From assembly GCA_033344915.1 (NCBI GenBank), contig JAWPML010000001.1:906369-970368 (forward strand): a stretch of DNA of 64,000 nucleotides. The letters are read 5' to 3'. Under the pieces are notes generated by a model. It was not told where the DNA came from and did not search any database. It saw only the letters and a program-made list of their open reading frames with translations. Numbering within the stretch: position 1 is the stretch's first letter; the number at the start of each line of letters is the position of its first letter. This DNA is from Acidimicrobiales bacterium (GTDB lineage Bacteria; Actinomycetota; Acidimicrobiia; Acidimicrobiales; Aldehydirespiratoraceae). Below are positions 26,265 through 29,132 of this stretch, in pieces. Both the position numbers and the translations under genes were made by a program.

Positions 26265-26333
26265 CGGCCTCCCTCGAGTTGAGCATCGGCGGTTTCGGTG
26301 GTCGACCTGAGCGCGTCCTCGTACGATCGCCGG

Positions 26334-27191
26334 ATGCCTCCGCAGTCGCTCGTCGCGACCCTCCTGACCTGGGCGGATGCCTCGCTCCGGGACCTGCCGT
26401 GGCGCCGCACGCGAGACCCCTGGGCCGTGTTGGTGGCCGAGACGATGCTCCAGCAGACCCAGGTGTCGCGAGCCGAGCCCAAATGGCGGGCGTTCCTGGA
26501 CGCGTATGCGGACCCGGCGGCGTGCGCGGCCGCGCCCCGCGCGGACGTGATCCGGCTGTGGGCGGGACTGGGATACAACCGCCGAGCCGTCAACCTGCAC
26601 CGCGCCGCCGAGGCGATCGTCGCCGACCACGGTGGGCGGGTGCCGCACACCCTCCCGTCGTTGCTCGGACTGCCCGGCGTCGGGCCCTACACGGCCCGCG
26701 CCGTGCTCGCCTTCGCCCACGAGCGGCCGGTCGCGCCGGTCGACACGAACATCGGGCGGGTGCTCGCTCGGTTCGCGGGGTCGTCGCTCACCGCCCGGGA
26801 GGTCCAGCAGCGCGCCGACGCGCTCGTCCCGCCGTCCGACCCGTGGCTGTGGAACCAGGGGATCATGGAGCTCGGTGCCCTCGTGTGCACCAAGCGGGTG
26901 CCCGACTGTGCTCGATGCCCGGTCGTGGACCACTGCGCGTGGCACGGTGAGGGCGACGACCCGGCGACGGGGTCCGCCGCGGTCAGCGCGCCCCAGGCCC
27001 GGTTCGAGGGCTCGGACCGTCAGCTCCGGGGCCGGCTGGTCGACGCCGTGCGGGCCGCCGACCTGGCCGTGGCCGACCTCATGACGGTGCTCGGAACCGA
27101 CGATGCCGAGCGCGCCGAGCGGACCCTCGGCGGGCTCGTGCGTGACGGCTTGCTCGAGGTGGAGGCCGGGACGGTCAGGCTGGGCCGGTGA
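26334..27191 (+). CDS. mutY: A/G-specific adenine glycosylase, short form
   Basis: 285 residues with the MutY catalytic domain: 'LPWRRTRDPWAVLVAETMLQQTQV' (catalytic Glu36), HhH motif 'LPGVGPYTARAVLAFA', catalytic Asp in 'APVDTNIGRVL' and a [4Fe-4S] motif C-x6-C-x2-C-x5-C (CTKRVPDCARCPVVDHC). It removes adenine opposite 8-oxoguanine. The NUDIX-like C-terminal domain is missing; a winged-helix-like tail of about 60 residues is present instead. The ATG follows TACGAT by 6 nt. The 3' end overlaps the convergent selenoprotein gene by 17 bp. Confidence 0.9.
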   Translation: MPPQSLVATLLTWADASLRDLPWRRTRDPWAVLVAETMLQQTQVSRAEPKWRAFLDAYADPAACAAAPRADVIRLWAGLGYNRRAVNLHRAAEAIVADHGGRVPHTLPSLLGLPGVGPYTARAVLAFAHERPVAPVDTNIGRVLARFAGSSLTAREVQQRADALVPPSDPWLWNQGIMELGALVCTKRVPDCARCPVVDHCAWHGEGDDPATGSAAVSAPQARFEGSDRQLRGRLVDAVRAADLAVADLMTVLGTDDAERAERTLGGLVRDGLLEVEAGTVRLGR

Positions 27192-27696
27192 GGGCGGCGA
27201 GGAGGTCGTCGATCGCCTGATCGGCGATCGCGGTCATCTCCTCGTCGGTGCGATCCTGGATCGGGTGCGCGGTGAGGACGTGGGCGACGTCCAGACCGAG
27301 GGCCGCGGACTGGGTGGCGGCTGCGTCCTCGAACTCCACGGTGGCCACGAAGACCCCCGGGATGCCACGGCGTTCGAGATCGTTGATGTCGTGCACACTG
27401 CACGTCGTGCAGCTGCCTCAATCGGCGAGGGCTTCGATCACCGCATCACAGCTCGTGGCGATCTCGTGGCGGAGGTCGACCGGAGCCGGTTTCGTGAACG
27501 TCGGCTTGCTGTAGCGCTTCACCGACGCGCCGAGCGCCGAGAGCTTCTGCTCGACCCGGTCGAGGAACACGTTGCCGCGGGGCTTGGAGATGTCGAGCAG
27601 GCCGACGGTGAGCCCGTTCAGGGATTCGGGCCGAGCGACGCGCTCGCGCTGCTCGGGGCGCAGTTCGCCGGTGGGATCCAGGACGGTCGTGGTCAT
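27175..27696 (-). CDS. UGSC-family selenoprotein with in-frame UGA (Sec93)
   Basis: Read through one in-frame TGA at 27420-27418, the gene encodes 173 residues: an N-terminal Rossmann-like half 'LNGLTVGLLDISKPRGNVFLDRVEQKL...CDAVIEALAD', then U-G-S-C-T-T-C, then 'SVHDINDLERRGIPGVFVATVEF' and a C-terminal helix. The order VGDUGSC-SVHD is the defining motif of the UGSC family, in which the U is selenocysteine. Right after the UGA a hairpin CGTGCA-GTG-TGCACG (27404-27390) puts GU at positions 20-21, as expected for a bacterial SECIS. The ATG overlaps the stop of the upstream partner gene (ATGA). Automatic annotation would report two fragments or a pseudogene. Function is unknown but redox chemistry is likely. 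selA/B/C/D are not in the window. Confidence 0.88.
27390..27404 (-). promoter_or_regulatory. SECIS-like hairpin downstream of the Sec UGA
   Basis: CGTGCA and TGCACG form a 6-bp stem with apical loop GTG, beginning 14 nt after the UGA. The G and U of the loop are at +20 and +21 after the stop codon, the same place as the SelB-binding GU in the E. coli fdhF element as I recall it. A second, mutually exclusive stem CTGCAC-GAC-GTGCAG lies at 27412-27398. Confidence 0.6.
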
Positions 27697-29132
27697 CGGG
27701 TGATCTCCTTGGTGACGGTGACACTACCCATCTCGCCGGTGACCCAGCCACCGATGGCCGAGGAGAACAGACCGGCGCCGCTGCCGCCGTGGACGACGTG
27801 GATGCCGCCCGGTGGGTACTTCGACAGCTCCATGTCGGCGATGAAGTCGGGCATGCCCTCCTCGATGCCGTCGGCACCGGAGATCACGTCGGCGCCCTTG
27901 ACCGTGAGATGGCCGTTGAGTTCCTCCAGGAAGCGAGCCCGATCCCAGCCCGCATCGCGATAGCGGGCCATGTGCTCGGGGGAGATCACGACGATCGTTT
28001 CGAACTGCATGATCATCCGCGGGCTCGCGTAGGACATGAGCATCTGGGCGAAGTGCTTGGTCAACGACTCGGCCGACCGTGACTTCTGGTCGAACAGGAG
28101 CCGCGGCCCCTCGCCGGGGAACAGCGTGACCGTCGAGACGTCGGAGGCGAACCCGCGGGACTCGGCGAAGGTGTCCCACGGAGTTCCTTCCTCGTCCTCG
28201 GCGAAGCACAGGCCGTACTTCGACGGGTTGCCCTGGGTGGCGCGGTCGACGCCTCCCGGCTTGCCGCCGCCGACGTTGCGAATGGTGAGCTGCAGAGCCC
28301 GGCCGATGGTCGAGTTGGCCCGGTTGCCCTGACCGAGGAGATTCAGCCCGGCGTTCATGCCGATCTCGTTGCGGATCGGTCCGTTGACGATCATCACCGG
28401 GCCGACGGGCATCGTGGTGGCGAGCAGGCCGTGCATGTTGAACTCGTCGGTGCAGGCGGCCTCGACCGCGGCGAGCACGACCGGCAGGTACTCCGGCTTG
28501 CAACCCGCCATCACCGCGTTCACCGCGACCTTCTCCACGGTGCACTCGACGAGGTCGGGGGGCACGACGGCGACGATGTCGTCCGGCGCCCGGGTCGTGC
28601 CCTCGAGCATGCGCAGCACCCGCGCCTCGGTCGGGGGGACGACGGGGAGTCCGTCGCTCCACCCCCGATCCCACATCGCCTCCCACTCGTCCTCGAGGTC
28701 CGCGATCTCGATGCGGCGGCTGTGGAGCGTCGATCCGGAGAAGCGGACGGCGAGCTCGTCGGTGAGGGTCGGGTCGACGCTCAAGGACCCACAGCCGGGC
28801 CGCATGTCGGGCAGGTCGGCGCCCAGGCCGTCGACGCCGGTGAAGGCCTCCCACTGGTCGCGCGACCACCCGACGGTCGTCTCCACGGCCGAGCCGTCGG
28901 TGACCTTCAACAGGGTGGGCACGGTTTCGATGTCGTGGTGCCAGGAGAGCGCGAGGTCCGCGTCGTGGACGACCCAGGGCGCGTCGGCCGGGAACCCGGC
29001 GTCGTCCTGGGTGATCACCGTCAGGTCGGCGCGCGAGGCGAGATCCTCGAGCACCGGAGCGACGAGGACGCACGTCGGACAGTCCTTCTTCACGACGGCG
29101 ACGAGTCCGTCCGGCAGGGGTGGTGCGGTCAT
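27693..29132 (-). CDS. Thioredoxin-domain protein partnered with the UGSC selenoprotein
   Basis: 479 residues. Residues 8-95 form a thioredoxin-like domain with CPTC at 18-21 and the cis-Pro segment 'IETVPTLLKVTDG'. The remaining ~340 residues belong to an uncharacterised family with 'GWSDGLPVVPPTEARV', 'AVMAGCKPEYLPVVLAAVEA', 'HGLLATTMPVGPVMIVNGPIRNEIGMN' and 'IRNVGGGKPGGVDRATQGNPSKYGLCFAEDEE'. Gene overlap (ATGA) with the selenoprotein shows joint expression, so I infer a two-component redox enzyme in which this CPTC domain may reduce the Sec protein. The ATG lies 6 nt after TAACAT, indicating a leaderless operon mRNA. Confidence 0.8.
   Translation of the reverse strand: MTAPPLPDGLVAVVKKDCPTCVLVAPVLEDLASRADLTVITQDDAGFPADAPWVVHDADLALSWHHDIETVPTLLKVTDGSAVETTVGWSRDQWEAFTGVDGLGADLPDMRPGCGSLSVDPTLTDELAVRFSGSTLHSRRIEIADLEDEWEAMWDRGWSDGLPVVPPTEARVLRMLEGTTRAPDDIVAVVPPDLVECTVEKVAVNAVMAGCKPEYLPVVLAAVEAACTDEFNMHGLLATTMPVGPVMIVNGPIRNEIGMNAGLNLLGQGNRANSTIGRALQLTIRNVGGGKPGGVDRATQGNPSKYGLCFAEDEEGTPWDTFAESRGFASDVSTVTLFPGEGPRLLFDQKSRSAESLTKHFAQMLMSYASPRMIMQFETIVVISPEHMARYRDAGWDRARFLEELNGHLTVKGADVISGADGIEEGMPDFIADMELSKYPPGGIHVVHGGSGAGLFSSAIGGWVTGEMGSVTVTKEITR

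Follow-up and report, generated by a model that had tools for sequence, protein, structure and literature searches.

A UGSC-family selenoprotein gene and its thioredoxin-bearing companion in an acidimicrobial genome: a possible two-component selenoenzyme

Introduction

The described systems closest to the locus reported here are the UGSC selenoprotein family and the GrdB and PrdB proteins, in which the selenocysteine (Sec) gene is likewise paired with a large-subunit gene. GrdE, found alongside GrdB, forms a pyruvoyl group. The portions consulted of the GOS survey (PMC2398784) place UGSC among the commonest selenoprotein families, with 255 sequences tabulated; they propose a thioredoxin-like (Trx-like) fold for it and describe a conserved domain, "Unknown_1," fused to UGSC. 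A 2026 review (PMC13188914, in excerpt) counts UGSC among families of largely uncharacterised function and names thioredoxin as the reductant of the glycine reductase complex. Literature searches for the name "UGSC family," for Acidimicrobi- selenoproteins or selenocysteine, and for Microthrix selenocysteine retrieved no paper.

Here we analyse a UGSC gene and the gene next to it within a 64,000-nt stretch of an Acidimicrobiales genome (the window), starting from an earlier note that had read a Sec codon and a hairpin from the sequence.

Results

The UGSC gene lies on the minus strand at 27175..27696; its 173-aa product carries Sec as residue 93, based on the joined translation and family profile matches. 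Read from 27696 to 27175, the strand gives ATG ... ALAD-TGA-GSCTTCSVHDINDLERRGIP ... TGA, with the terminal TGA at 27177-27175 (minus strand); the same-frame segments join across the internal TGA as ALAD-U-GSCTTC-SVHDINDLERRGIP. The earlier note had described one TGA at 27420-27418 (minus strand) between two segments of a 173-aa frame, and translation reproduced this. A conventional ORF call halts at 92 aa (27418-27696). The joined protein scored 154.3 bits against NF041046 (cut-off 125) and 150.8 bits against PF24696 (cut-off 25), both above the curated thresholds, and it carries the motif of that family (Sec or Cys, then GSC). The family assignment made in the earlier note therefore holds: the gene is a correct additional member of the known UGSC family. 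Cys96 (27409..27411, minus strand) is the likely redox partner of Sec93 in a UxxC arrangement. A mutY-like gene (26298-27191) is convergent with the UGSC 3' end and overlaps it by 17 nt.

A scan of species genomes yielded 223 confirmed places for UGSC relatives. The best 80 of these come mainly from actinobacterial MAGs, many with Acidimicrobi- titles, and without exception (80/80) they carry TGA where the window gene has its Sec93 codon (27418..27420, minus strand). We also built a broad alignment of 37 rows, comprising 28 paralogous or plasmid sequences (17 TGA, 11 Cys), the window sequence and eight close relatives; five short or weak matches were excluded beforehand. As the earlier note had anticipated for homologs, the Sec position is TGA or Cys in 37/37 rows, and Cys96 is Cys in 37/37. 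The window shares with the UGSC family the scores above cut-off, the UGSC motif and the presence of Sec or Cys in it; its subgroup differs in having a third Cys (UGSCTxC), at a position that is Trp in 16 and Cys in 14 of the 37 broad rows.

UGSC was found in 138 of 395 genomes of the class (above cut-off in 102), with up to 8 matches per genome, and at least eight paralog rows without a stop in the class are Cys-type or otherwise sense. The genome that contains the window has a second UGSC gene, also TGA-type (L104:9506-10009; G000:C1:2075574-2076008, plus strand), with a Trx-less companion in front and an SDR gene behind. TGA-type UGSC also occurs on plasmids. It stands ahead of a companion (L132:5428-5916) on p2-T1, an IncP plasmid from Acidovorax sp. 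T1 that is typed as conjugative; its first part alone is annotated there, as a hypothetical protein. The large Paracoccus plasmids pFER4 and pTAV4 (L158, L126) carry a TGA-type UGSC with a companion; on pFER4, selB is annotated 3.3 kb past the companion, and the UGSC frame, which contains a TGA, is given as two hypothetical proteins, an instance of the split annotation that the earlier note had predicted for such genes.

The sequence after the UGSC TGA contains a SECIS-like hairpin, CGTGCA-GTG-TGCACG (27390..27404, minus strand; loop GTG at 27396-27398), delimited by comparison of relatives. A position check confirmed the hairpin and its loop where the earlier note had placed them: the stem starts at the 14th nt past the TGA, and the GTG loop occupies +20 to +22. 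This element agrees with the description of bacterial SECIS elements in the excerpted text of PMC1088965, a stem-loop close 3' of the TGA whose small apical loop includes a G. The loop is GTG in 81/81 sequences (the window and 80 relatives), and where codon 98 is TCG or TCA, as in some relatives, the stem can be extended to the counterpart of 27388-27406.

Isolated folding of this region, a check that the earlier note had proposed, did not bear the hairpin out: the 61 nt from the TGA were no more stable than shuffled sequences (z +1.51), and the lowest-energy RNAfold structure of the window stretch is another hairpin that overlaps the drawn one. We rejected this other hairpin as the conserved element; across 64 distinct sequences, 86.7% of its cells are paired and covariation is not in excess. 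The drawn stem, lengthened to 8 pairs, is paired in 92.4% of cells in the same number of distinct sequences, and 36 of its 39 misses are a single A.A mismatch beyond the original six pairs. The number of cells changed on both sides of this stem (5) and the covariation score were matched by 0/500 shuffles; the covarying-pair and pair-type counts were matched by 248/500, because one pair alone covaries. Since the rows are related, these shuffle figures are not true probabilities. The covarying pair changes from G-C to A-T in seven sequences through two synonymous third positions. Six of these seven are on the companion tree, where they fall into three separate groups (L076 beside L069; L078 and L087 with L073; and L079, L084 and L090), two of which hold an adjacent G-C row.

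Synonymous choice across the 81 sequences is free at most surrounding codons and scarce in codons 4 to 10 past the TGA (nt +12 to +32 when numbering starts at its T). Near-fixed codons are Ser AGT (81/81), Val GTG (80/81), Asp GAC (81/81) and the first Thr ACG (75/77); the His codon of this stretch is CAC in 72/81 and CAT in 9/81, and GAT directly precedes the TGA in 80/81. Based on these comparisons, a SECIS-like element for UGSC, with its hairpin in a stretch poor in synonymous change, is supported.

The window belongs to a 4.48-Mb genome on one contig. The earlier note had held that the organism makes selenocysteine, and a genome search located all four components. SelA was identified at 2.0e-95 and scored 385.7 bits against TIGR00474 in a separate profile match, with selB directly downstream (289 bits; cut-off 242.25); tRNA-Sec scored 64 bits and has the anticodon tca according to ARAGORN. 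Seven more tRNA-model matches fell below the cut-off and were taken for other tRNAs. The selD match (359.8 bits; L092, G000:C1:1225971-1226897) has one internal TGA, and SelD of this genome is therefore probably a selenoprotein itself. Among class genomes with UGSC, SelA is present in 118/138 at E ≤ 1e-30; at this threshold SelA was tallied in 260 genomes, and at E ≤ 0.001 in 276. The 20 UGSC genomes without SelA include some of low completeness and some with Cys-type UGSC (G316, G342, G145 and G218). Two genomes (G292 and G364) are 96% complete and have TGA-type UGSC, yet SelA was not found in them at E ≤ 1e-30. Taking the frame, the relatives, the hairpin and the machinery together, we regard it as almost certain that the window TGA is decoded as Sec in the UGSC protein.

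The gene upstream of UGSC, which we call the companion, occupies 27693..29132 (minus strand) and encodes 479 aa, based on the ORF listing and the loci of relatives. The earlier note had described it as a Trx-domain gene coupled to UGSC through ATGA; the ATGA overlap stands, but the Trx part covers the first ~100 aa alone and the remainder is a separate domain. Foldseek and VIA identified residues 1-100 (28833..29132, minus strand) as a Trx-fold domain (VIA Z 8.6 over 84 residues), with CPTC at residues 18-21 (29070-29081), and CxxC is present in 77/77 companions covering that stretch. Compared with thioredoxin, only this N-terminus shares the CxxC and the fold; it is fused to a core of ~330 aa and scores 17.1 bits, under the NCBIfam cut-off of 96.8. 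The core (residues ~147-479; 27696..28694, minus strand) is shared with Trx-less companions, as defined by profile scans and a broad alignment, and has near-invariant DGxP, AGC and GR motifs. Cys114 (PG-C-GSL; 28791..28793, minus strand) lies between the two domains. Within the core, Cys211 (28500-28502, minus strand) is Cys in 46/46 rows and Cys309 (28206-28208, minus strand) in 43/45.

Profile scans covered the window companion and Trx-less relatives. The window core had no match above cut-off in Pfam or NCBIfam; at looser thresholds, Pfam (E up to 10) returned a single weak row, to HEAT repeats (E 0.2), and NCBIfam (E 1) gave none. For the cores of Trx-less relatives, two had no Pfam rows at E 0.1 and two had no NCBIfam rows at E 1. 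Foldseek gave good probability for the Trx domain only, and Trx-domain rows took up the VIA list. Class I fumarase was considered as kin of the companion and not accepted (Foldseek probability 0.25-0.38, TM about 0.2).

Pairing of the two genes is nearly constant. Among the best 80 of the 223 UGSC relatives, the companion is upstream of UGSC on the same strand in 80/80 loci, three of which are cut by a contig end and one of which has a 1.1-kb gap. With companion presence set at E ≤ 1e-40, 133 of the 395 class genomes have both genes, five have UGSC only and three have the companion only. The pair is also present in a relative that has been cultured, Ilumatobacter nonamiensis (L064). At 19 paralogous loci, the genes are side by side in 16, within 4 kb in two (L106, L107) and at a contig end in one. 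We found no Trx part in the companions of these fetched loci (18/18 without), a further difference from the Trx-fused companions of the window's subgroup, and the Trx fusion thus belongs to that subgroup. Of 24 plasmid records with a companion-like protein, 13 were inspected; ten have UGSC next to the companion, two have both in a fusion, and in one UGSC was not found.

Neighbouring genes of the pair vary from lineage to lineage. At paralogous loci they encode SDR, zinc-ADH and 2-hydroxyacid dehydrogenase proteins, and on plasmids CoA-transferases and TRAP and tripartite tricarboxylate transporters. In three of 11 annotated plasmid regions (Arthrobacter, which also has trxA, Roseovarius and Variovorax), a trxB gene lies no more than 3 kb from the pair; with the Arthrobacter proteins as queries across all collected loci, trxB was found in only five and trxA in only two. 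Two companion-core genes accompany one UGSC at some loci, in tandem after UGSC (L108:8866-10992) or flanking it on both sides (L131, L161).

On plasmids of Vibrio europaeus and Sporomusa termitida, UGSC-like and companion-core sequences form a single chain (L130:5401-7086 and L129:5329-7053), near aconitase X and DUF126 genes. These far-diverged relatives lack both redox residues, with Met at the Sec site and Ser in place of Cys; the pairing of the domains is thus possible without the redox pair. In being fused to UGSC, the "Unknown_1" domain described in the consulted portion of PMC2398784 is similar to these proteins.

At 12/81 loci the companion gene has a single in-frame TGA, at the codon for Cys114 (L026, L038, L040, L044, L045, L049, L051, L052, L054, L056, L086 and L089). 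In the companion alignment, the 92 rows covering position 114 have Cys in 79, TGA in 12 and an ambiguous TGN in one. A companion TGA occurs in at least nine class genomes, all of family f12 and all SelA-positive, which overlap in part with the 12 loci. A thirteenth TGA (L104, query position 127) precedes that gene's start codon and was dropped.

Downstream of the companion TGA is a second potential hairpin, GTCGACCC-CGGGC-GGGTCGAC. It forms 7 or 8 of 8 pairs in 12/12 TGA loci, whereas among 78 Cys loci none has 8 pairs and eight have 7; the mean 28-nt folding energy is -12.2 kcal/mol for TGA loci versus -6.2 kcal/mol for Cys loci, and with related rows the p-values of this comparison are a guide only. 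Covariation was computed on 16 distinct of 21 rows. In 3/16 distinct rows one pair is U-A instead of C-G, a change of both partners; the number of both-side-changed cells was matched by 3/500 shuffles and the covarying-pair count by 314/500. In a phylogeny of 52 companions, the eight included TGA rows (of 12) make up one side of a branch with support 100/99 and are nested among Cys rows. A single branch within Cys rows means that one Cys-to-Sec change is enough. In its consulted portion, the 119-family selenoprotein table of PMC13188914 lists UGSC and has no entry fitting the companion, and the excerpted literature passages that mention UGSC describe no companion selenoprotein. We therefore regard the companion of this one clade, which is of Microthrix type, as a candidate for a new selenoprotein family equipped with a separate SECIS-like hairpin.

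The UGSC protein has weak local matches around Sec to the NCBIfam models for GrdB (TIGR01917, E 3.2e-5) and GrdF (E 8.9e-5). With 23 bits against a TIGR01917 cut-off of 602.2 it does not reach the family threshold, and Pfam GRDB (PF07355) gave no match at E 0.001. In hhalign comparisons, the broad UGSC profile aligned with a PrdB-like actinobacterial set (P 2.8e-5, probability 74%) and with a GrdB-like set (P 1e-4, probability 58%), keeping the register at Sec in both. The narrow UGSC alignment gave P 7.4e-4 (GrdB-like) and 4.8e-3 (PrdB-like) at low probabilities of 26% and 7%. Three other pairings (companion-GrdE, P 0.62; companion-GrdB, 0.2; UGSC-GrdE, 0.1) showed no kinship of the companion to GrdE or GrdB. 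We found no match to GrdE (PF09338) in the window's genome; full-length GRDB and PF09338 co-occur in an identical set of 7 of 149 phylum genomes.

All 21 checked actinobacterial PF07355 matches stop at a TGA in the standard reading. Read through, seven full-length GrdB-like proteins have U-GTGTR(C/S)G in a loop ending ER.GIPT, and 14 short PrdB-like proteins mostly have U-PxC. CxxCxxC is not at the expected place in the GrdB-like frames because the TGA breaks those frames there. A PrdB-like gene of the window's own genome (L156:1540-2628; match at G000:C1:331479-331901) reads LLTPV-U-PLCTRTV across its TGA, and its product is probably another selenoprotein. In the Sec loop and the next helix-strand, UGSC is similar to the GrdB/PrdB proteins (ADUGSCTTC..LERRGIPGVFVAT versus TGTUGTGTRCG..FEREGIPTVFVTA of L136). 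It differs from the seven GrdB-like proteins in having Cys and not Gly at Sec+3, though PrdB-like proteins have U..C, and it falls far under the family cut-off; the companion takes the place of GrdE without visible kinship to it. Judged by these alignments, UGSC may resemble GrdB/PrdB to a moderate degree, in its Sec loop and in the C-terminal half of the protein.

In the AlphaFold model of UGSC (pLDDT 90.5), helices alternate with five strands, and Sec lies between strand 3 and helix 3. Foldseek and VIA returned general alpha/beta folds; the best Foldseek row was a flavodoxin, with a TM under 0.5. We did not accept the top VIA row (Z 11.6), one chain from the activation complex of methyl-coenzyme M reductase, which is tied with unrelated rows such as a de novo design (Z 11.0), or KaiC, the sole match of a PDB sequence search (E 0.08-0.17), which was judged to be chance. 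The alternating alpha/beta model does not favour the Trx-like fold proposed for UGSC.

Discussion

We lean, by a little, towards a reading in which the two proteins are the components of a single selenoenzyme that draws on thioredoxin and resembles GrdB/PrdB in its mode of action, while its partner subunit is unrelated to theirs. What the sequences contribute to this reading is the family membership, the recoding signals, the near-constant pairing, the Trx fusion, the TGA at companion position 114 in one clade and the profile similarity to GrdB/PrdB; from these we infer a UGSC-companion complex, the direction of electron flow, a reductive chemistry and a role for Cys/Sec114. UGSC would be the Sec subunit, one half of the enzyme, in which Sec93 and Cys96, located where a helix of the alternating alpha/beta domain begins, would act as nucleophile or redox couple in the manner of the GrdB/PrdB Sec loop. 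The companion core would bind the substrate and build the active site together with UGSC. The fused Trx domain would re-reduce the oxidised Sec-Cys bond, either directly or via Cys114; this residue, on the stretch between the companion's two domains and with a TGA codon (so presumably Sec) in one clade, would be the likely shuttle. In other lineages, a separate trxB (and trxA) near the pair may replace the fused domain. A small metabolite that is reduced or reductively cleaved would fit both the GrdB/PrdB-like loop and the metabolic neighbours, varied as these are. Because the genome has no GrdE match and the companion no GrdE or GrdB kinship, the chemistry of GrdB would not be transferable as a whole. 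The moderate to low profile probabilities, the missing Pfam GRDB match, the Gly at Sec+3 of the GrdB-like proteins, the few loci with trxB or trxA, and the Vibrio and Sporomusa fusions without either redox residue speak against this reading.

The same cysteines and selenocysteines could instead serve thiol/selenol redox repair or detoxification, with the pair acting as a peroxide or disulfide reductase in which the companion Trx domain and the UGSC Sec feed electrons to oxidised proteins or peroxides. UxxC, CxxC and a third Cys/Sec are a typical electron relay, and the consulted portions of PMC2398784 and PMC13188914 group UGSC with Trx-like redox proteins. However, a core of ~330 aa with near-invariant DGxP, AGC and GR motifs exceeds what a relay needs, the UGSC model has no evident Trx fold, and the combination of up to eight UGSC matches per genome with SDR, zinc-ADH, dehydrogenase, CoA-transferase and transporter neighbours resembles substrate-specific metabolism; we consider redox repair rather unlikely, at about one chance among four.

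Another arrangement would make the companion the enzyme and UGSC mainly a structural or regulatory subunit whose Sec protects or senses and does not catalyse. The Vibrio and Sporomusa plasmid fusions, which keep both domains although Sec is replaced by Met and Cys by Ser, speak for such a role, and the weak class I fumarase rows for the companion (probability 0.25-0.38) could hint at a lyase-type enzyme. The constancy of Sec/Cys93 and Cys96 in 37/37 broad rows and the cost of maintaining recoding argue against this arrangement, which we judge improbable. That the TGA is a true stop, and that what follows it is a gene in decay or arises by re-initiation, accords with the standard reading ending at 92 aa and is nevertheless extremely improbable, given the TGA with an intact downstream frame in 80/80 (best 80 of 223), synonymous sites almost fixed exactly at the hairpin, compensatory changes at one stem pair and Sec machinery in the same genome.

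The pair may represent a further GrdB/PrdB-type class of selenium enzyme, spread over actinobacteria and proteobacteria and reaching haloarchaea as Cys-type proteins. The partner in this class would have no relation to GrdE and would contain its own thioredoxin in the window's subgroup; in one acidimicrobial clade it would be a second, so far undescribed selenoprotein, giving two Sec per enzyme from neighbouring genes. We put this wider proposal forward tentatively, as somewhat less probable than its opposite. As far as the sequences go, what appears new beyond the known UGSC family is the companion's own TGA, the near-constant pairing and the link to GrdB/PrdB. A Trx-bearing partner, itself apparently selenium-containing in some relatives, suggests a thioredoxin-fed enzyme. 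With a fixed partner, a built-in electron donor and the GrdB/PrdB link, UGSC becomes part of a well-delimited gene pair open to expression and assay, and the companion, as a candidate new selenoprotein family with a single Cys-to-Sec switch within one clade, offers a handle on the benefit of selenium.
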